Part shown: piece by piece, positions 1,226 through 10,441 of the stretch | Position numbering within the stretch: the first letter of the stretch is position 1 | Layout: every line of letters starts with the position of its first letter | NCBI RefSeq assembly: GCF_014653945.1 | Contig: NZ_BNAU01000003.1 | Span: forward strand, 310,001-374,000 | Length of the DNA: 64,000 nucleotides | Source of the DNA: Amycolatopsis deserti | GTDB taxonomy: Bacteria > Actinomycetota > Actinomycetes > Mycobacteriales > Pseudonocardiaceae | Reading direction: 5' to 3' | Position numbers and translations under genes: made by a program | Notes under the pieces: model-generated | Databases searched by the model: none | Seen by the model: the letters and a program-made list of their open reading frames with translations, nothing else | Told to the model about the DNA's origin: nothing

Positions 1226-2353
1226 ATGGGACGCAGGTTGTGCGCGGAGAGCGAGTACCCGGCGGCGCTGCTCGCCGTGGCGGCGTACCGCCTGCCGGGG
1301 AGCGACCGGGCGTTCCCGGCGGAACCGGTGGGCGCCGAGGAGTGGCCGGGGCTGCTCGCGGCGGCGCGGAAGCACCGGATGACCGGGTTGCTGACGGCGG
1401 CGATCACCGCGGGCGCGTTCCCGGCGACCGGTGAGCAGGCGCGCGAGGTGAAGTCCGCGCACGCCACCAACCAGATGCGCGTGCTGGTGCTGGAGCACGA
1501 GCTGCTGCGGATCCTCGACCTGCTGGCCGGGGCACGCATCGAGGCGCGGGTGCTGAAGGGAACGGCCGTCGCGCACCTGGACTACCCCGATCCGGCGCTG
1601 CGGTCGTTCAACGACCTCGACGTGCTGGTGCGGGCCGGGGACATCGACCGGACGGTCGAGGCGCTGCGGACCGCGGGTTTCCAGCGCACGCTCGCCGAGC
1701 CGCGGCCGGGGTTCGACCGGCGGTTCGACAAGGGCATGACGTTGCGCCCGCCCGCCGGGTACGAGCTGGACCTGCACCGCACGTTCGTGCTGGGCCCATG
1801 GGGGCGGCGGGTCGACCTGGACGCGGTGTGGGACGAGGGGCAGGAGTTCACGATCGGCGGCCGGGCGGTGCGGGCGTTGTCGCTGCCGAACCGGTTCCTG
1901 CACGCCTGCTACCACGCCGCCCTCGGCGACTGGCCGCTGCGGCTCGGCTCGCTGCGGGACGTGGCCGAGATGCTGCGGGTGGTGGATCCGGGGCAGGTGC
2001 GGCGGCTGGCCGCGTCGTGGGGTGCGGAGGCGGTGGTGGCCGCCGCGGTGGCCGACACGGTGCGGCTGCTCGGCATCAAGGTGCCGGGCGAGCTGGCCCA
2101 CTGGGCGGTCGCCTACGTGCCGTCTCCCCGGGACGAATCGTGGCTGGGGTTGCACACGACACCGGACAAGACGTTCGCCGCGCAGGCGGTGGCGACGCTG
2201 CGGGTCCTGCCGTGGCGCGACAAGCCCGCGTACCTGCGCGCGCTGGTCTTCCCGGACGCGAGCTACACGGCGGACCGGCACCGTTCGGTGCTGAGCCGGT
2301 TCGGCTACGCCCTGCGCGAGGTGCGGAAGGGTTCGCCCACCGGGCGGCGCTGA
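1226..2353 (+). CDS. Nucleotidyltransferase family protein (PF14907-like)
   Basis: 375 residues. The core matches the uncharacterised nucleotidyltransferase family NTP_transf_5: an LKG motif at about residues 110-112 followed by a metal-site-like NDLDVL at about 129-134, then a conserved DLHR stretch. I chose the ATG at 1226 because GGAGG (1216-1220) sits 5 bases upstream; an in-frame ATG at 1211 would overlap the upstream TGA but has no ribosome-binding site. Members of this family occur in exopolysaccharide loci and in some lasso-peptide loci; the pseudomycoidin homologue PsmN modifies the phosphate placed on the peptide's C-terminal Ser. The HPr-kinase-like gene at 7657-8574 makes a similar role plausible here, but the gene is 2 kb from the nearest lasso biosynthetic gene, so this is inference. 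Confidence 0.75.
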   Translation: MGRRLCAESEYPAALLAVAAYRLPGSDRAFPAEPVGAEEWPGLLAAARKHRMTGLLTAAITAGAFPATGEQAREVKSAHATNQMRVLVLEHELLRILDLLAGARIEARVLKGTAVAHLDYPDPALRSFNDLDVLVRAGDIDRTVEALRTAGFQRTLAEPRPGFDRRFDKGMTLRPPAGYELDLHRTFVLGPWGRRVDLDAVWDEGQEFTIGGRAVRALSLPNRFLHACYHAALGDWPLRLGSLRDVAEMLRVVDPGQVRRLAASWGAEAVVAAAVADTVRLLGIKVPGELAHWAVAYVPSPRDESWLGLHTTPDKTFAAQAVATLRVLPWRDKPAYLRALVFPDASYTADRHRSVLSRFGYALREVRKGSPTGRR

Positions 2354-2359
2354 GCCGGG

Positions 2360-3298
2360 TCAGCGCCGCAGCTCGGCGACCAGCAGGTTCGAGTCGTTCC
2401 CCACCAGGTTGGCGCCGTTGGTCACGTACACCCGGTGCCCCCGCACGACGACGGCCGTCGTCCCCTGCATGCCGTCCGCGGCGTCCAGCAGGGTGTCGTG
2501 GGAACCGTCCGCGCCCACCCGCACGAGCTCACTCGCCTGGTTGATCGCGGCGAGGATCTCGTCGCCCCGGCCGGTGAAGTCGAAGTCGTCGATGCCGGCC
2601 AGCCCCGTGGCCCGGACCTCGGCGCGGCCGCCGGTCACCGGGATGCGGACGATGGTGCCCCGGTCGGAGTTGCTCGCCCACACGGCACCGTCGTGGATCT
2701 TCAGGCCGTTGGCGCCGAAGAAGCCGTCCGGCGCCAGAGCCGGGTCAGCCGACCACACCGACGCCGCGCCGCCCCGCAGCGGGGCTTGCCAGATGCGCCC
2801 GTCGGCGGAATCGGTGACGAGGACGCGGTCGCGGTCGATGACCAGCGCGTTCGGCATGGTGTCGGCGGGCAGCGGCACGACGAGCCGAGGCTCGCCGGAG
2901 CGGCCCAGCCGCCAGATCCCGGTCAGCGCGCCCTGTCCGGCGGAGTAGAGGAAGTACACGTCGCCGCTGCCCGACCGGGCGACCCCGGTGACCACGGGGG
3001 CCCCGACGACCGGGGTGGTGCCGCCGCCACCTGGCGGCAGCGGCATGGTGACCAGCACCTGGACGGCCCCGTCCGGCGCGACCCGCACCACCTGGCGGGC
3101 CGGGATCATGCCGATCACCGCGCCACCGCCGGGTTGCGGGGCGATGCTCTCGGCGGCCTGGCCCGCGGCGCGGTCGAAGTGGGCGAGCACGCGCACGTCC
3201 GCCAGGCGGCTGGGGCCCGGGTGCGCCCGCGCGGTGGCCGGGGCGCCCGCGACGAGCAGAACGGCGGCGAGCAGGGCGGCGGTCCGGTGGGCGGTCAT
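2360..3298 (-). CDS. Secreted SMP-30/gluconolactonase-like beta-propeller protein
   Basis: 312 residues, starting at ATG 3298, whose codon overlaps the stop of the regulator upstream (ATGA, 3295-3298). A longer open frame exists upstream but reads through the regulator in another frame. A signal peptide is evident: MTAHR, then a hydrophobic Ala/Leu/Val segment ending near ATARAHP. The rest has six-bladed propeller repeats with blade motifs such as GDVYFLYS, DRVLVTDSADGRIW, GAVWASNSDRGTIVRIP and HRVYVTNGANL. Proteins of this type are lactonases or ligand-binding propellers; the catalytic metal ligands cannot be assigned from sequence alone. Co-translation with an XRE regulator suggests a small two-gene operon. 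Its link to the lasso locus is only positional. Confidence 0.7.
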   Translation of the reverse strand: MTAHRTAALLAAVLLVAGAPATARAHPGPSRLADVRVLAHFDRAAGQAAESIAPQPGGGAVIGMIPARQVVRVAPDGAVQVLVTMPLPPGGGGTTPVVGAPVVTGVARSGSGDVYFLYSAGQGALTGIWRLGRSGEPRLVVPLPADTMPNALVIDRDRVLVTDSADGRIWQAPLRGGAASVWSADPALAPDGFFGANGLKIHDGAVWASNSDRGTIVRIPVTGGRAEVRATGLAGIDDFDFTGRGDEILAAINQASELVRVGADGSHDTLLDAADGMQGTTAVVVRGHRVYVTNGANLVGNDSNLLVAELRR

Positions 3299-4146
3299 GC
3301 TTCTCCTTCGGTGGTGAAGGTCTCCTGGCCGAGCACGGCCAGCAGCTCCAGCTGCGACACCGCGGCGCTGCCCGGCGCGGGTGAGTACACGATCAGGCGC
3401 TGGTCCTGCCGGGCCGTCGCCAGGACGTCGAAGTCCAGTTCGATGAGCCCGACCGCGGGGTGCCGGATGCGTTTGCGGTCGCTGCGACGGACCGCCACGT
3501 CGTGCCGGTCCCAGAGCCCGGCGAACTCCGCGCTCGCCGCGCGCAACGCCTCGACCAGCTCGCCCGCCGCGCGGTCGGCCGGCCGGGCCGCGAGGGTCGC
3601 CCGCAGGTCCGCCACCTGCGCCTGGCTCTCGTGCTCGTGGTCCTCGGCCGGATGACGCTCGCGCATCGCCGGATCGGTGAACCACCGGTAGGTGCAGCTG
3701 CGGGCGAGGCCGCGGAACCGGGTCTGCTCCCCCAGCAGCGCGTCCGCCATGGCGTTCTGGGCGAGGACGATGTTCAGGTCGGAGGCGATCAGGGCGGGCA
3801 GGCCCGTCACCCCGTCCAGCAGCCGGAGGAGGCCGCGGCTGACGTGCTCGTCACCACCGGCGCACGGCGGAGCGTGGTGACCGGCGAGGCGGAACAGGTG
3901 GTCGCGTTCGTCGGTCGTCAGCCGCAGCGCACGGGCCAGCGCCGCGAGCACCGTGACCGATGGTTGCGGGCCGCGGCCCTGTTCGACCCTGGCGTAGTAG
4001 TCCGGTGACATGCCGGCGAGCTGGGCCACCTCGAAGCGCCGCAGCCCCGGCCTCCGGCGTCGCCCGCCCGCCGGGACACCGACGTCCGCCGGCTGGAGCA
4101 GCGCCCGCCGGCGCCGGAGGAATTCCGCGAGTTCGTCCCGTGCCAC
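3295..4146 (-). CDS. XRE-family regulator with MmyB-like ligand domain
   Basis: 283 residues. The N-terminal half has a Cro/CI-type helix-turn-helix at about residues 30-75 (FEVAQLAGMSPDYYARVEQGR, followed by PSVTVLAALARAL). The C-terminal half matches the MmyB ligand-binding domain of actinobacterial regulators (LNIVLAQNAMADALLG, ARSCTYRWFTDPAMRE, RIRHPAVGLIELDFDVL). Such proteins usually control adjacent genes and may respond to a small hydrophobic ligand. The gene ends in an ATGA overlap with the SMP-30-like gene and begins 52 bases past the end of the lasso cyclase gene on the same strand, so it may be read from the precursor promoter as well as from its own. Confidence 0.85.
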   Translation of the reverse strand: MARDELAEFLRRRRALLQPADVGVPAGGRRRRPGLRRFEVAQLAGMSPDYYARVEQGRGPQPSVTVLAALARALRLTTDERDHLFRLAGHHAPPCAGGDEHVSRGLLRLLDGVTGLPALIASDLNIVLAQNAMADALLGEQTRFRGLARSCTYRWFTDPAMRERHPAEDHEHESQAQVADLRATLAARPADRAAGELVEALRAASAEFAGLWDRHDVAVRRSDRKRIRHPAVGLIELDFDVLATARQDQRLIVYSPAPGSAAVSQLELLAVLGQETFTTEGEA

Positions 4147-4198
4147 GCCCCCAGCATGATCCTCTGCCGGCGGGACAACCAGGACTCGTCGATACCAC

Positions 4199-5329
4199 CT
4201 AACCGCTGGTCGCCAGCCACGCCTGCTGCAGCAGCGTCATCGACGGCGCGTGCGGGCTCGGCGAGAGCCAGTTGTCCCGCAGCGCCTCGGCGTCCACCAG
4301 CTCAGCGTCCACCCCGCGACCGGTCCACTCGCGCGCGAAGGCGCGTGTCCGTTCCGTGAAGACCGCCCCCGTGAAGTCCGCCTTCGTCGTGCGTTCCAGG
4401 ACTTCGCGGGGCAGCAGGTCGCCGAAGACGTCGCGCATCGTGGCCGTCCGGCCGCTCCACCCCCAGAACCCGGCGGCCCGCGCGATCGCCGCCACGAAGT
4501 CCGGCTCGGCGAACGTCTGCACGTACCGGCAGTCCAGTTCGGACCCCAGCGCGCGCACCGTCCGGTAGCCCAGCCGCGCGCAGCGTCGCGTCGTGAACTG
4601 CCACGCGTGGCGGCCGGCGTGCAGCTCGTACGCCGCCGCGTCCGCCGCGTCCCGTTCGGCGAGCACCTCCTCCGCCGCGGGCCGCAGCCACGGGCGCCGG
4701 TACCGGGCGCGCAGCACGGCCCGCCGCCGCACGGACGCGGGCGCCAGCGCGCGCACCGCGTCGGTGAACACCCGGGCCGGCACCCGCCCGCGTGCCTTGA
4801 GCACCTTGGTCAGCGGCGTGATCCGCTTCAGCCCGAACACCTCGTCGCCGCCCTCGCCGGTCAGCAGCACGCCACCGCGAGCCGCGTCCATCATCCGCCA
4901 GGTCGGCGCGAAGTTCGGCGGCCACACCAGCCCGTGCCGCCGCAGCACCGCGGTCGCGATCGGGCCGACCGGATCATGCTCGTCGTCCACGGTCAGCACG
5001 ATGCGTTCGGTGATCCCGAGGTGCGCGAGCACGGCGTCCTGCCACGCGGATTCGTCCGACCCGGGCGCCGCCGGGTAGCGCAGCGTGATCGGCACCGGCA
5101 GGGGCAGTCCTTCGCGCCGGGCCAGTGACACCGCCGCGGCCAGCAGCGCGGAGGAGTCGCGGCCGCCGGAAAAGGCGACCAGGCAGGGTGTCCGCGTCAG
5201 GTGCCCGAGCAGGATCCGGTCGAGCACCCGCCGCGGCTCGCCGGGATCGCCCAGCGGCAACGGGACGAGGTCGTACCCGTTGATCCAGCCGCCCGCGATC
5301 TCCAGTCGGTCCATTGTGTACAGGGCCAC
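4199..5329 (-). CDS. Lasso macrolactam synthetase C1, synthetase domain only
   Basis: 376 residues with an asparagine-synthetase-type ATP pyrophosphatase domain. The PP-loop SGGRDS is at residues 54-59 and the second ATP/Mg motif GEGGDE at 158-163. Lasso C proteins use this fold to adenylate the side chain of a ring Asp/Glu and close the macrolactam on the core N-terminus. The usual C protein is about 500-600 residues with an N-terminal Ntn glutaminase-like domain; here fewer than 50 residues precede the PP-loop, so that domain is absent. The start is GTG 5329 or ATG 5314; neither has a strong ribosome-binding site. It lies directly downstream of both precursor genes behind a strong hairpin (5369-5408). 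A second, diverged copy is at 8993-10111. Confidence 0.8.
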   Translation of the reverse strand: MALYTMDRLEIAGGWINGYDLVPLPLGDPGEPRRVLDRILLGHLTRTPCLVAFSGGRDSSALLAAAVSLARREGLPLPVPITLRYPAAPGSDESAWQDAVLAHLGITERIVLTVDDEHDPVGPIATAVLRRHGLVWPPNFAPTWRMMDAARGGVLLTGEGGDEVFGLKRITPLTKVLKARGRVPARVFTDAVRALAPASVRRRAVLRARYRRPWLRPAAEEVLAERDAADAAAYELHAGRHAWQFTTRRCARLGYRTVRALGSELDCRYVQTFAEPDFVAAIARAAGFWGWSGRTATMRDVFGDLLPREVLERTTKADFTGAVFTERTRAFAREWTGRGVDAELVDAEALRDNWLSPSPHAPSMTLLQQAWLATSG

Positions 5330-5368
5330 GGGGTGCTCACTTTCGGACAGTCGGCGGACGGGGACAGG

Positions 5369-5408
5369 CGGTCACGGGACCGGCGGCAGCGCGCCGGCCC
5401 CGTGACCG
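5369..5408 (-). terminator. Strong stem-loop between lasso precursors and cyclase C1
   Basis: CGGTCACGGG (5369-5378) pairs perfectly with CCCGTGACCG (5399-5408). After one A/C mismatch the stem continues with CCGGC (5380-5384) against GCCGG (5393-5397), giving 15 pairs around an 8-base loop. There is no T-tract on either strand. It lies in the 87-base gap after the second precursor gene. Its position fits a leaky terminator or 3' stabiliser that keeps precursor mRNA more abundant than enzyme mRNA, an inference from the general layout of RiPP operons. Confidence 0.6.
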
Positions 5409-5416
5409 GTGAATCG

Positions 5417-5557
5417 TCATGAGTACGTGTCGTTGTCGCCGAGAATCGGCAATGCCCACGTGAGGTTGTCCGGCGCCTGACCGAACAGGTTCGCCTGTGT
5501 CAAGTCCGTCACCGAACCCAATAGGGTGATTTCCGGGGTCGCATACGGTTCGCGCAT
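5417..5557 (-). CDS. Lasso peptide precursor A2 (Ala1 core)
   Basis: 46 residues, too short for ordinary gene calling. ATG 5557 is preceded by a strong GGAGGTGA ribosome-binding site. The leader (1-21) carries the conserved lasso signature: Tyr5, Pro8, Ile10, Gly14 and the penultimate Thr20. The predicted core begins at Ala22 with ANLFGQAPD, placing Asp at core position 9 for a nine-residue macrolactam ring. The tail includes NLTWALPILG and ends DNDTYS, giving a 25-residue core with C-terminal Ser. Ala as ring residue 1 is less usual than Gly. Leader residues align position for position with the neighbouring precursor at 5602-5739 although the cores differ. Its stop is followed by a strong stem-loop and then cyclase C1. 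Confidence 0.85.
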   Translation of the reverse strand: MREPYATPEITLLGSVTDLTQANLFGQAPDNLTWALPILGDNDTYS

Positions 5558-5601
5558 GTGTTCACCTCCCCCCGCTACTGGCAGGGATGGGAAAACCGGG
5601 G

Positions 5602-5739
5602 TCAGGAAAACGTCAGATCTCCGAAGAGGCTACCGGCAGCGAAATCGGCGTCGAGCCGGGATCCCGACGACTGACCGAGCGTGAGCTCGGACAACGTGCC
5701 GATGTCCTCGATGCCCGGCGCGGCGTACTCTTTCTTCAT
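5602..5739 (-). CDS. Lasso peptide precursor A1 (Gly1 core)
   Basis: 45 residues. ATG 5739 has a clear AAAGGAG ribosome-binding site 5 bases upstream. A much longer open frame through this start was rejected because it runs antisense through the exporter gene. The leader (1-21) has Tyr5, Pro8, Ile10, Gly14 and Thr20, the YxxP...G...T signature read by the RRE protein and the leader peptidase. The core starts at Gly22 with GQSSGSRLD, so Asp falls at core position 9 (Asp at 11 is an alternative). The tail runs through ADFAAGSLFG and ends DLTFS, giving 24 residues with a C-terminal Ser. It is the first gene of the operon A1-A2-C1, read away from the exporter. Confidence 0.88.
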   Translation of the reverse strand: MKKEYAAPGIEDIGTLSELTLGQSSGSRLDADFAAGSLFGDLTFS

Positions 5740-5907
5740 ATCGCTCCTTTCCGTTACTCGTCGACGAAGGAGAGCCGAAGGACCTCGACCGGGATTCGCC
5801 TGAATGCTCCACGCCGTTACAACCGCTCGCCGAATGTGCTGGTGAAGTTGTCCAACCGGTACCGGAACAATTCCGGGAATTCGTTTTCCCGGCGGTAGGA
5901 TCCGACG
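5740..5907. promoter_or_regulatory. Divergent promoter region of the lasso locus
   Basis: 168 bases between precursor A1 (minus) and the exporter (plus). It is visibly less GC-rich than its surroundings, as expected for promoters. It contains a perfect inverted repeat CCGGAA-CAA-TTCCGG at 5862-5876, close to the exporter start, which could be an operator. I cannot assign -35/-10 boxes with confidence on either strand. The exporter's ribosome-binding site (GTAGGA, 5895-5900) is at the right end. Confidence 0.5.
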
Positions 5908-7674
5908 GTGGGGATCAGAAGCGTCGCGGCCACGCCGCGGTTGATCACGGCCGCGGCGCGCGAGGTCGCGGCGGCCGACCGGTTCGGCACCGCAACCGCG
6001 GCGGTCTACCAGATCGTCGGCGCTGTCGGCGCGCTCGGCGTCGTCGCGGCGAGCAAGCTCACCTTCGACGCGTTGCTGCAACCGGATCACGCCCGCTTCG
6101 GCCTCACCGTTTCGTTGCTGGCACTGGCGTTCACGACCGCACTGTCCGGTTCGGTCACCGCCCTGCAGACCCAGCAGCACCGGTTGCTCGGCGAACGCGT
6201 GTCGCAACGGGTCTGGGACCGCGTGCTGGACACCACCGCGCGCGCGGACCTGGTGACCTACGAGTCCGCCGGCTTCGCCACGTCGCTGGAACGCGTCCAG
6301 CAGAACGCGCTGACCCGCCCGTTCGCCGTGACCACCGCGCTGCTCGGGCTGACCGGGAGCCTGCTCGGGGTCGTCACGATGTCGGCGGTGCTGATCGGGG
6401 TCGAGCCGCTGCTGGTGCCGATCCTGCTCGCCGCCGGGCTGCCCGCGGTGCTGCTCGCGCGGTGGGCCAGCCGCACCGAGTTCGCGTTCGCCCACCGGCT
6501 CACGCCGCTGTTCCGCCGCCGCAACTACCTGCGGCAACTGCTCACCCAGCGCCCGTACGCGGCCGAGCTGCGCGCGTTCCACTCGACGAAGCCGTTGCGG
6601 GCGCGGCACGGCGAGCTGAACGCCGGGATCAACGGAGCGCTGCGGCAGCAGGTCCGGCGCCGCCAGGTGATCGCCGGGCTCACCACGGTCGGCGTCGCCC
6701 TGTCGCTGACCGCCGCGCTGCTGGCGATCATCGGGCTGGTGCGCAGCGGCCGGATCGACCTGCCCGCGGCGGGCGCCGCCGCGATCGCGGTGCGGTTGCT
6801 GAGCAGCCAGCTCGGCACCTTGTTCACCTCGATCGGCGGGCTGCTCGAATCGGCGCCGTTCCTGGCCGACCTGGAACGGTTCGTCGCGTCGGCCCCGCGT
6901 TCGGCGGCCGCCGGGGCGAAGCGGCCGTTGCGGCAGGGCGTCGTGTTGCGGGACATCAGCTTCCGCTACCCCGAGCAGGAGCGGCCCGCGGTCGACTCGG
7001 TGGACATCGAGATCGGCGCGGGCGAGGTGGTCGCGCTGGTCGGCGAGAACGGCTCCGGCAAGACGACGCTGGCCAAGATCGTCGCCGGGCTCTACGACCC
7101 GGACCTTGGCACGCGCCGCTGGGACGGCACGGACGCCCCGGCGGCCGACATCCGCGCGTCGGTGACGGTGATCTTCCAGGACTTCGTGCGCTACCAGATG
7201 ACGTTGCGCGACAACATCACGATCAGCGACGGCGACCGCCCCGCCGACGAGGAGTCGGTGCACGACGCGGCCCGGCGCGCGGGCGTGCTCGGCGTGACGC
7301 GCGAGCTGCCGCACGGCCTGGACACGATGCTCGGCCGGGACCTGGACGAGGGTTTCGACCTCTCCGGCGGGCAGTGGCAGCGGGTGGCGCTGGCGCGGGC
7401 GCTCTACCGGGACACGTCGCTGGTGGTGCTGGACGAACCGGCCGCGGCGCTCGACCCGCGCGCCGAGCACGAACTGTTCACCGACGTCCGGGCGATGCTC
7501 GGCGGGCGCGCCGCGCTGCTGATCTCGCACCGCTTCTCCAGCACCCGGATGGCCGACCGGATCTACGTGCTCGACGCGGGCCGCGTGGTGGAGTGCGGCA
7601 CGCACGACGAGCTGATGGCCCGCGCCGGCCAGTACGCCGAGCTGTACCGCCTCCAGTCAGCGGCCTACCGCTGA
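5908..7674 (+). CDS. Lasso peptide ABC exporter (fused membrane and ATPase domains)
   Basis: 588 residues. The N-terminal half (about 1-330) is a transmembrane exporter domain with several hydrophobic segments. The C-terminal half is an ABC ATPase: Walker A GENGSGKT near residue 379, Q-loop region VIFQDFVRYQMT, signature LSGGQWQR near 485, Walker B LVVLDEPAAALD and H-loop LISHRFSS. It matches the D component of lasso loci, which exports mature peptide and confers self-immunity. The start is GTG 5908 with GTAGGA 7 bases upstream. It is divergent from the precursor operon and its last 18 bases overlap the convergent kinase gene, which supports one compact locus. Confidence 0.88.
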   Translation: MGIRSVAATPRLITAAAREVAAADRFGTATAAVYQIVGAVGALGVVAASKLTFDALLQPDHARFGLTVSLLALAFTTALSGSVTALQTQQHRLLGERVSQRVWDRVLDTTARADLVTYESAGFATSLERVQQNALTRPFAVTTALLGLTGSLLGVVTMSAVLIGVEPLLVPILLAAGLPAVLLARWASRTEFAFAHRLTPLFRRRNYLRQLLTQRPYAAELRAFHSTKPLRARHGELNAGINGALRQQVRRRQVIAGLTTVGVALSLTAALLAIIGLVRSGRIDLPAAGAAAIAVRLLSSQLGTLFTSIGGLLESAPFLADLERFVASAPRSAAAGAKRPLRQGVVLRDISFRYPEQERPAVDSVDIEIGAGEVVALVGENGSGKTTLAKIVAGLYDPDLGTRRWDGTDAPAADIRASVTVIFQDFVRYQMTLRDNITISDGDRPADEESVHDAARRAGVLGVTRELPHGLDTMLGRDLDEGFDLSGGQWQRVALARALYRDTSLVVLDEPAAALDPRAEHELFTDVRAMLGGRAALLISHRFSSTRMADRIYVLDAGRVVECGTHDELMARAGQYAELYRLQSAAYR

Positions 7675-8574
7675 GAGCAGGTCCGCGAGCACCTCGTCGC
7701 GGAAGGGCGGGCCCCAGGGCACGGTCGCCTCGAACACCGGCACCTGCGCCACCAGGTCCGCCAGCCGCTGGAACGCGAAGTCCATCACCGCCGGATCCCG
7801 CCACCCCAGCACGCGCGGGAACTGGCTCATCCGCACGAACGCCCGCGCCCCGGTGATCCGCTCCACCGAAACGTCCGTCGCGGACCGGCTCGGCCGCGGG
7901 ATCACGCACGCGGCCAGCGGCAACGCGCTGGCGGACACAGTGGACCGCAAAGCCAGCCGGCCGTCGGCGGTCGGCCGCACGTCCTCCGCGGCGGCCCCGT
8001 CCGCCAGTCCGCGCGCGGCCATCCGCAGCCGGTTCTCCGTGCTGCCCGGGTACACGAGCGCGCCGGGATCGACGCGCAGCACGTCGTCGGCCACCAGGTC
8101 GCACCCGTACCCGCACAGCGCCGCCGCCAATGTGGACTTCCCCATCCCCGACGCGCCGACGAACGCCAGCGCGCGGTCGTCCACCCGCACCGCGCTCGCG
8201 TGCAACACCAGGTGCGAGTTCAGGGTCAGGTGGATGGCGAGCAGCGCGCCCGTCGCGAGCACGGTCAGCAACCCGTGATCGGCCGACGGGTCGAGGTGGT
8301 AGGTCACCTCACGCAGCCGCACGTCGCCGACGAACTCGCACAGCGACGGGTACCGCAGCACGGTCCGGTCCCCGTCCGTGGCGAGTGTGTAGAACACCCG
8401 CCCGTCCGGTTTCGCCAGTTCGGCCAGGCACCGGCCGGGCAGCTCGGCCCGCGGCACCGTCCGATCGGAACCGCGGCGCAGCACCAGATCCGGCTCGCCG
8501 CCGTCACCGGGTGGCAGCGCCAGTTCGACATCGCTCCAGACGGTCAGCCCGTGAGCCTGGTAGGTGAAGTCCAT
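7657..8574 (-). CDS. HPr-kinase-like protein K of the lasso locus
   Basis: 305 residues resembling the C-terminal catalytic domain of HPr(Ser) kinase/phosphorylase. The HASAV motif is at 125-129, the P-loop GASGMGKST at 140-148 and LVADD at 160-164. Homologues in paeninodin-type lasso loci phosphorylate the side chain of the precursor's C-terminal Ser. Both precursors here end in Ser, so the substrate is present. ATG 8574 is preceded by GGGGTGA; an upstream in-frame GTG at 8583 would give a 4-base GTGA overlap with gene B. It is the last gene of the E-C2-B-K operon and its end overlaps the convergent exporter by 18 bases. A general carbon-control HPr kinase is unlikely given this context. Confidence 0.83.
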   Translation of the reverse strand: MDFTYQAHGLTVWSDVELALPPGDGGEPDLVLRRGSDRTVPRAELPGRCLAELAKPDGRVFYTLATDGDRTVLRYPSLCEFVGDVRLREVTYHLDPSADHGLLTVLATGALLAIHLTLNSHLVLHASAVRVDDRALAFVGASGMGKSTLAAALCGYGCDLVADDVLRVDPGALVYPGSTENRLRMAARGLADGAAAEDVRPTADGRLALRSTVSASALPLAACVIPRPSRSATDVSVERITGARAFVRMSQFPRVLGWRDPAVMDFAFQRLADLVAQVPVFEATVPWGPPFRDEVLADLLSAVGR

Positions 8575-8579
8575 TGTGG

Positions 8580-8996
8580 TCACCCCGCCGATCCGAGTAC
8601 CGCGTACCGCGCCGCCATGGGGTCCATCGCCCTGCCGTCGATCTCCAGCCACGAGTGCGCGGCGAACCGGCCGTCCTCGCGCCGCACGCCGATGCGCAGC
8701 ACCGGTTCCAGCTCCCGCAACCGGTGCCCGATCAGCAGGCACTGCCGCAGGCACGTGTCCCCGGCCGGCCACCGCGACACCACGAAGTACGAGGCCCGGA
8801 TCGGCGCCCGCGACCACCGCGGCAGCACCGGCGCCTCGGCCGAGGGCGGCTCGGTGCTGGTGAGATCGCAGCGCACCCCCAGCCGGCGGCACGTTTCCCG
8901 CAGGTCCGAGCGCCGCAGGCGGAACTCGATCCGCACCATCGGCGGAAGCGCCCGCAGCACCTCCCAGGCCAGCCGGGCCCGTCGCCGCCACCTCAT
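8580..8996 (-). CDS. Lasso leader peptidase B (transglutaminase-like)
   Basis: 138 residues, the usual length of a stand-alone B2 protein with the Transglut_core3 fold. The likely catalytic Cys is residue 82 in TCLRQCLL, with His114 in AAHSWLEIDG and Asp120 completing a Cys-His-Asp triad. Such enzymes cut the precursor after the leader, just past the penultimate Thr, exposing the core N-terminus for ring closure. The start is ATG 8996, overlapping the C2 stop (ATGA). A second Cys at 86, where many homologues have Ser, is a minor oddity. The leader-binding RRE is encoded separately at 10092-10343, so this is the split E plus B2 arrangement. Confidence 0.87.
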   Translation of the reverse strand: MRWRRRARLAWEVLRALPPMVRIEFRLRRSDLRETCRRLGVRCDLTSTEPPSAEAPVLPRWSRAPIRASYFVVSRWPAGDTCLRQCLLIGHRLRELEPVLRIGVRREDGRFAAHSWLEIDGRAMDPMAARYAVLGSAG

Positions 8997-10111
8997 GCCG
9001 CCTCCGCCAGCCAGGCCTGCTGCAACAGCATCGCGGTGGACGCCGGCGGCTCGTCGGCCAGCCACGCGGTCCGCAACGCGTCCGGATCGACCAGCGACGC
9101 GTCGACACCGCTGCCGTCCCAGTTCCGCGCGAACTCCCGCGACCGCGCCCCGAAGCGGGAGGCGTTGAACCGCGCCTTGTCCCGCCGGGTGAGGACCGCC
9201 TCCGGCAGCAGCCCGTCCGCGACCAGCCGGGTGCCCGCCGCGCGGGTCATCGGTGCGACAGCCGCGTAGGACGCCACGAACGTCGGATCGGCGAACGGTT
9301 CCACCAGCTCGCAGCCGTACTCCGCGGCCGCGTCGGCCCGCGTCCGGAATCCCACCGAGAACGCGCGGGTCGCCAACGCGGTGCGCACGCTGGTCTCCCA
9401 CCGCAACGGGCGGTCCGCGGCCGCGCGCCACAGCGTGCGGCGCACGTCCGGCCGCAGCCACGGCATCGGCAGCGACCGGCGCGCGAGCCGTCGGCGGGCG
9501 AACGCGGGCGCCGCGCACAGCGCGAACTGCGCCCAGTCGGCCCCGGTCATCCCCCGGCCACGACGGCGCGCCACCGCCCGCAGCGTCCCGAGCCGGTGCC
9601 CGCCGAGCACCTCGTCCCCCGCGTTGCCGGTGACCAGGCTGCCGCCCGGCGCGTGCGACGCGAGCAGCATCGTGTTGCCCAGCGCCGCCGGGTAGACCGG
9701 GCCGCGCGCCCGCAGCACCGGCCGCACGAGCGGTCCGATCAGGTCCAGCTCGCCGTCGATGTCCCGGCGCGCCCAGGTGTCGACGCCGACGTGCCGGATC
9801 ACCGCCTCCTGCCAGGCCGACTCGTCCGCGGCCGCGTCACCGGGATAGCGGAAGGTCAGCGCGATCGGTGGTGCGAGCCCCTCCCGTGCGGCGAGATCGG
9901 CCGCGACCGCCAGCAACACCGACGAGTCCCGCCCACCGGAAAAGGCGATCACACACGGCTCACGCAGCAACGCCGGTCGCACGGCGTTCCGCAGCGCCAG
10001 CACCGGGTCCGTGGGCACGCCGAGCGGGAACGGCGCGACACCGAGCGGCTGACCGGCCGCGATGTCCAGTGTGGACAGCCGCGGCGGCGCCTCAGTGGAG
10101 GAGCTCGGCAT
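8993..10111 (-). CDS. Lasso macrolactam synthetase C2, synthetase domain only
   Basis: 372 residues, a diverged paralogue of the protein at 4199-5329. The PP-loop SGGRDS is at 58-63; the second motif is GNAGDE (162-167), where C1 and most asparagine synthetases have GEG. The N-terminal glutaminase-like domain is missing here too. Both paralogues end in a similar MLLQQAWLA tail. The start is ATG 10111, which overlaps the end of the E gene by 20 bases; it lacks a strong ribosome-binding site, so coupling to E is likely. The longer open frame reaching 11173 runs antisense through the PAP2 gene and was rejected. C2 may cyclise one of the two precursors or pair with C1. Confidence 0.8.
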   Translation of the reverse strand: MPSSSTEAPPRLSTLDIAAGQPLGVAPFPLGVPTDPVLALRNAVRPALLREPCVIAFSGGRDSSVLLAVAADLAAREGLAPPIALTFRYPGDAAADESAWQEAVIRHVGVDTWARRDIDGELDLIGPLVRPVLRARGPVYPAALGNTMLLASHAPGGSLVTGNAGDEVLGGHRLGTLRAVARRRGRGMTGADWAQFALCAAPAFARRRLARRSLPMPWLRPDVRRTLWRAAADRPLRWETSVRTALATRAFSVGFRTRADAAAEYGCELVEPFADPTFVASYAAVAPMTRAAGTRLVADGLLPEAVLTRRDKARFNASRFGARSREFARNWDGSGVDASLVDPDALRTAWLADEPPASTAMLLQQAWLAEAA

Positions 10112-10343
10112 CGCGGAGCCGGCCGAGGAAGGCCTCGATGTCGCGGCGCGCGGTGTCCGCGTCGATCTCGTACTCGCTGGTGATCGCGCCGACCAGGTCC
10201 TCGACCGACCGCTCCTCGGCGAGCAGCTCGAACAACCGCGTGCCGACACCGGTGATGGTGAAGTACTTCGAGGTCGACAGGCTGAGCACGATCGTCTCGT
10301 CACCGATGGTGCGAGCCGAGATGTCGGATGCCCGTACGCGCAT
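10092..10343 (-). CDS. Lasso RRE protein E (PqqD-like leader binder)
   Basis: 83 residues with the PqqD/RiPP recognition element pattern: ETIVLSLSTSKYFTITGVGTRLFELLAEERSV is the strand-turn-strand-helix core, described here by its two halves (residues about 16-30 and 31-48), followed by a helical winged part ending RLRDAELLH. These domains bind the leader and present it to the B protease and the cyclase. ATG 10343 has a good GGGAGG ribosome-binding site 7 bases upstream. It is the first gene of the minus-strand operon E-C2-B-K, so its promoter should lie in 10344-10441. Confidence 0.87.
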   Translation of the reverse strand: MRVRASDISARTIGDETIVLSLSTSKYFTITGVGTRLFELLAEERSVEDLVGAITSEYEIDADTARRDIEAFLGRLRDAELLH

Positions 10344-10441
10344 GGCGGCCCTCCCGGAGCTGGCGGCTTCTCCTGCGAGTCGCCGGCGACCGCCTCCCCG
10401 TTACGCCGAAACGAACCCGGCCGGGAGACCGACTCCCAACG

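Follow-up and report, generated by a model that had tools for sequence, protein, structure and literature searches.

The closest described relatives of the locus analysed here are class II lasso clusters of the kinase type, namely that of paeninodin (padeA-K) and the kinase clusters thco, syan and psm (PMC9266682, PMC8498205). The published code of lasso leaders comprises Tyr(-17), Pro(-14), Leu/Ile(-12) and Thr(-2) (PMC10368454), and the first residues observed experimentally in lasso peptides are Gly, Cys, Ser, Ala and Asn, Gln and Val not being listed (PMC12670498). Some ruminal genomes carry more than one lasA (PMC7533575).

Lasso engineering faces the practical, still unsettled question of what determines the core that a given cyclase will fold and close. 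The locus described here lies in a 64-kb window of Amycolatopsis deserti DNA (the whole stretch of 64,000 nucleotides that was analysed). Judging from its genes, it is likely to be a kinase-type class II lasso cluster making two peptides by means of a common module and one dedicated cyclase per core.

Two precursors with a common leader register

A previous sequence-only reading of this DNA had proposed two lasso precursors with a common leader register and differing cores, and both open reading frames were confirmed on the minus strand:

5417-5557, minus strand: A1 precursor, 46 aa, leader MREPYATPEITLLGSVTDLTQ plus core ANLFGQAPDNLTWALPILGDNDTYS
5602-5739, minus strand: A2 precursor, 45 aa, leader MKKEYAAPGIEDIGTLSELTL plus core GQSSGSRLDADFAAGSLFGDLTFS

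The details of that proposal also held. The leaders are 21 residues long and the cores start at residue 22; Tyr5, Pro8, Ile10, Gly14 and Thr20 coincide in the two leaders; and the cores, of 25 residues in A1 and 24 in A2, both have Asp at position 9. The leaders thus display YxxPxL/I at -17 to -12 and Thr(-2), and Asp9 falls within the segment (core positions 7-9) at which Asp or Glu is expected in a lasso precursor. Both cores end in Ser and neither contains Cys, in agreement with class II, which lacks a disulfide. The predicted rings are Ala1-Asp9 in A1 and Gly1-Asp9 in A2. For the peptides less one water, [M+H]+ values of 2688.294 (A1) and 2388.110 (A2) are predicted, rising by 79.966 to 2768.260 and 2468.077 if a phosphate is added. 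Ala1 had been considered less common; it is uncommon, but it already figures among the N-terminal residues observed experimentally (PMC12670498).

Strong Shine-Dalgarno sequences (GGAGGTGA and AAAGGAG) are found at both starts. A strict motif combining leader and acidic residue retrieved exactly A1 and A2 from the open reading frames of the window, and retrieved nothing from 60 windows simulated with the third-order composition of this DNA. With NF033521, the NCBIfam lasso leader domain, A2 scores 19.4 bits (cut-off 19) and A1 17.6 bits, slightly below that cut-off. The sequence-only reading had required that other genomes hold related precursors next to B/C/E genes; such precursors were found in about 20 related clusters, where the orthologues of A1 and A2 occupy the same location. 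When Amycolatopsis-type genomes are compared in pairs, A1 and A2 each give a dN clearly lower than dS, indicating that both are maintained as proteins. A chance motif as the origin of A1 and A2 was ruled out by the simulations, the conservation and the dN below dS.

The invariant positions are Y5, P8, G14, T20, Q21, D30 and the final S in A1 (20 relatives), and Y5, P8, G14, T20, L21, D30 and the final S in A2 (11 relatives), the final Ser being present in all 20 A1 and 11 intact A2 sequences. Residue 1 of the A1 core is mostly Ala, the exceptions being Gln (L032, L048), Ser (L045, L046), Gly (L049) and Val (L066), while the residue preceding it is always Gln. The precursors with Gln or Val at the predicted core position 1 lie at 13521-13661 of L032, 13583-13717 of L048 and 13130-13273 of L066. 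The A2 core is nearly fixed across genera (GQSxGSRLDADFAAGTxFGDLTFS) and is preceded by Leu. This near-fixation argues for a conserved target or role of the A2 peptide, with A1 drifting more. All A2 cores and several A1 cores end in GD-x-(aromatic)-Ser, which may be a pattern read by the common kinase.

Asp9 and the C-terminal Ser, present in every intact precursor, fit ring closure at position 9 and, by analogy, a phosphorylation like that of paeninodin. The products could nevertheless be unthreaded macrolactam peptides, or only one of the precursors could be functional. Threading is not readable from sequence, and with 24-25 residues the cores are on the long side for this class of peptide. 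However, both precursors are under constraint, with Asp9 and the leader code retained, and the enzymes encoded beside them belong to lasso families, which makes such an outcome improbable.

The presumed shared module

Around the precursors the lasso cluster is complete, with B1, B2, an HPr-kinase-like gene, an ABC exporter and the cyclases, and a nucleotidyltransferase-family gene adjoins it. The genes other than the cyclases are:

1226-2353, plus strand: N, NTP_transf_5 family (PF14907, 137 bits)
5908-7674, plus strand: D, ABC exporter, fused permease/ATPase (PF00005, 97 bits)
7657-8574, minus strand: K, HPr-kinase-related tailoring kinase (TIGR04352, 38 bits, and PF07475, 25 bits, both below cut-off)
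8580-8996, minus strand: B2, leader peptidase, transglutaminase-like (NF033537 lasso_biosyn_B2, 52 bits, cut-off 33)
10092-10343, minus strand: B1, RiPP recognition element, PqqD fold (PF05402, 64 bits)

B1, C2, B2 and K are located upstream of the precursors on the same strand, and C1 downstream of A1. The recognition element and the leader peptidase of a lasso cluster are both represented, B1 by its PF05402 score and by a match to the TbiB1 structure 5v1u (E 3e-13), and B2 by a score over the NF033537 cut-off; a PDB sequence search with B2 gave no match. B1 should bind both leaders. K contains a candidate motif, His125-Lys146-Asp163-Asp164, that is invariant in 12 homologues, and together with the C-terminal Ser of the precursors it assigns the cluster to the kinase type. 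The sequence-only reading had recognized the two precursors, and had overlooked this kinase and the Ser that ends each core, as well as the shortness of the cyclases. The exporter gene D is divergent and is conserved in nearly all relatives.

The limits of the cluster are given by an empty site. The same-genus genome G113 has no block matching positions ~2340-10405 and possesses both flanks and N (L176, 6800-8100), so that the cluster appears to be gained or lost in one piece. N adjoins the clusters of most relatives, yet it is kept in the cluster-less G113, and it is therefore a probable but not certain member. A flanking PAP2 phosphatase was considered as a de-protecting enzyme and dropped, as both flanking PAP2 genes persist in G113, where the cluster is missing. 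The stretch between N and C1 (2360-4146) encodes a regulator whose ligand-binding domain is MmyB-like, and a beta-propeller-like protein that is probably secreted; among the clusters checked, these genes are present only in some of the same genus (L033-L035).

Two short cyclases

The sequence-only reading had also missed the second cyclase, and with it the pairing of precursors and cyclases. The two cyclase genes, and the hairpin that separates C1 from A1, are:

4199-5329, minus strand: C1, short lasso cyclase, 376 aa, GTG start, motif GEGGDE (PF00733, 71 bits)
5369-5408, minus strand: hairpin of 17 bp, between the A1 stop and the C1 start (fold z -4.3)
8993-10111, minus strand: C2, short lasso cyclase, ~372 aa, start codon uncertain, motif GNAGDE (PF00733, 57 bits)

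Both are assigned to the ATP-dependent cyclases of the asparagine synthetase type, on the basis of PF00733 and of the conservation of SGGRDSS and of a Lys. They are 41% identical to each other and form separate clades, each with support 100/100 and a long stem. The active-site loop is of the GEGGDE type in C1, Asp replacing Glu in one relative, and GN[AG]GDE in C2, with the Asn fixed in 11 of 11 C2 sequences. We take the Glu/Asn position to be that of the catalytic Glu348 of asparagine synthetase B. A plasmid search for C2 gave no match.

C1 and C2 consist of the synthetase domain only. The N-terminal region of about 240 residues found in ordinary lasso cyclases is absent from both, and upstream of either gene there is no space for another domain; in other phyla, the cyclases encoded next to HprK-like genes have 625-677 residues, the extra ~240 being at the N terminus. 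The AlphaFold model of C1 is a confident single domain (mean pLDDT 92) whose fold matches are weak, the top-ranked ones being beta-lactam and asparagine synthetases. Single short cyclases are common in other actinobacterial families. The locus also suggests that an entire branch of actinobacteria can do without the N-terminal domain of ordinary lasso cyclases. The missing N-terminal region might instead be substituted by association of C1 with C2 into one hetero-oligomeric cyclase acting on both peptides. We regard this as very improbable and have rejected it, because each cyclase occurs without the other: C1 is alone in at least nine relatives and C2 in one, in clusters that are otherwise complete, the genomes of the single-cyclase relatives have no second copy elsewhere, and lone short cyclases are common in other actinobacteria.

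Two further observations concern short cyclases. In L041 (5776-4607) the C1 frame continues beyond its usual end to 567 residues, by a C-terminal extension, a fusion or a lost stop. The loci L158-L171 (family f15) are lasso-like, with a short cyclase and glycine-rich cores such as GGTVGPDDGLGGGGDGSL, and no kinase was detected in them.

A strong hairpin of the same shape is found at the A1-C1 position in 20 of 21 clusters (it is absent in L040) in spite of widely different sequences. As it has no U-run, it is read as a likely attenuator or mRNA stabiliser, which would keep the precursor mRNA in excess over the cyclase mRNA.

Apparent pairing of precursors and cyclases

The distribution of the four genes was followed in 22 related clusters, all from Pseudonocardiaceae where named. 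C2 is present in 11 of them, always between B1 and B2, and A2 is intact in 10 of these 11; in L036, C2 is accompanied by an A2 with a one-base frameshift and a damaged leader. Ten of the 11 clusters without C2 have no intact A2. One of these ten, L048, retains a probable decayed A2 remnant; the eleventh, L066, a Pseudonocardia MAG, has an A2-type gene whose core starts with Ala, not Gly. A1 occurs in every cluster with C1. Each pair can stand alone: in Actinophytocola, Qaidamihabitans and Amycolatopsis marina the cluster contains C1 and A1 without the other pair, and in Haloechinothrix halophila (L050/L065) it contains C2 and A2, C1 and A1 being absent.

The co-occurrence of A2 and C2 is significant if kinship is ignored (Fisher p 3e-4), and the kinship-aware paired contrasts, of which one to three are independent, are underpowered. 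With at most three contrasts on the tree, the A1-C1 and A2-C2 pairing is suggestive, not proven. Beyond the family the deep branches of the tree give no resolution for an A/C co-phylogeny.

Few independent losses or gains on the tree is also what would be expected if C1 and C2 were general cyclases for both precursors, with dosage or drift behind the second copy and nothing but shared ancestry behind its co-occurrence with A2. L066, with its A2-type gene and C1 only, is compatible with this explanation, as are the family f34 clusters, in which one cyclase is used for two precursors, so a second cyclase is no general need. But several observations disagree with it: (i) the clades of C1 and C2 are old and long-stemmed, and each has been conserved on its own; (ii) they carry a group-specific active-site residue, Glu (once Asp) in C1 and always Asn in C2; (iii) they occupy different gene positions; (iv) L050 has retained only C2 and A2, and L048 has a probable decayed A2 where C2 was lost, and (v) the two f34 cores are alike, whereas those of A1 and A2 are much less so. 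General cyclases are thus an unlikely explanation, although one to be reckoned with.

Outside the family, L191 (G646) carries at 6487 an A2-like precursor, LTLGGKDGAQLDAAFPAGTPRGKLTFS, together with a single short cyclase of the GEGGDE type, a kinase and an exporter. The proposal that C2 alone accepts A2-type cores everywhere is weakened by this locus and by L066.

A model for the synthesis of two peptides

We lean towards a model in which one recognition, protease, kinase and export module would be combined with two dedicated minimal cyclases. B1 would bind the YxxPxI leader common to A1 and A2, and K would phosphorylate the C-terminal Ser of both cores, N possibly decorating the Ser phosphate. 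B2 would cut after Thr(-2)-Gln(-1) in A1 and after Thr(-2)-Leu(-1) in A2. C1 would then adenylate Asp9 of the A1 core and join it to residue 1, which is Ala here and Ala, Gln, Ser, Gly or Val in relatives; C2 would likewise close the A2 core between Gly1 and Asp9. Both peptides would be exported by D. The sequences themselves show the genes, their motifs, their conservation and their co-occurrence; threading, Ser phosphorylation, the use of one cyclase per core and export are what we infer. The site of the kinase could differ from the C-terminal Ser, given that BsfK phosphorylates Ser3 (PMC10368454). We give somewhat better than even chances to a fuller reading, in which the two cyclases, both free of the N-terminal domain, also diverged in specificity, along with a Glu-to-Asn change that became fixed in the active-site loop of the synthetase domain and with a split in the first core residue (Gly for C2; Ala, Gln, Ser, Gly or Val for C1).

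As two cyclases of about 375 residues share the leader binder, protease, kinase and exporter, cyclase-core specificity becomes testable with the rest kept constant, and the relatives with a single pair (C1/A1 only or C2/A2 only) amount to natural deletion strains.

Comparison with known kinase-type systems

Openly licensed literature, incompletely covered, contained no two-cyclase lasso cluster and neither the A1 nor the A2 core string, and no description of a phosphorylated actinobacterial lasso peptide was found in the literature covered. The locus widens the range of kinase-type lasso clusters, which now takes in Pseudonocardiaceae and further actinobacteria. What sets it apart from the known kinase-type clusters is the combination of two precursors and two short cyclases of matched occurrence, for which priority is not claimed.

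With the paeninodin type the locus shares a precursor ending in Ser, an HPr-kinase-like K, the split B1/B2, C and the exporter. The candidate His-Lys-Asp-Asp motif of K and the C-terminal Ser match what has been reported for PadeK (PMC9266682). The psm cluster also has a nucleotidyltransferase N; the N described here is of the domain class described for PsmN/BsfN, a likeness drawn from the descriptions. By its parts the locus is also like pseudomycoidin; in that type, which combines phosphate and hexose, N is expected to act on the phosphoserine, a role that the N described here may or may not have. What distinguishes the present locus from the paeninodin type is the doubling of both precursor and cyclase, each cyclase consisting of the synthetase domain alone. 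The bsf cluster of Bradymonas sediminis has the same gene set, A, B1, B2, C, D, K and N (PMC10368454), but it differs in having a single precursor with Ile(-2), one cyclase and a kinase that acts on Ser3 in the ring (PMC10368454). Ordinary cyclases from Burkholderiales and others (L086, L091, L111), whose genes adjoin HprK-like ones, resemble C1 and C2 in the Asn-synthase domain and in the SGGxDS and GxGGDE-type motifs, and differ from them in size, 625-677 aa with a long N-terminal region compared with ~375 aa.

Lasso systems with several precursors and a single cyclase for both, many of them with a kinase, include ruminal genomes (PMC7533575) and loci of family f34. The f34 loci L179, L180, L181 and L183 are of the kinase type and hold two similar Ser-ending precursors with one short cyclase. 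In contrast to such clusters, each precursor type of the present locus has its partner cyclase.
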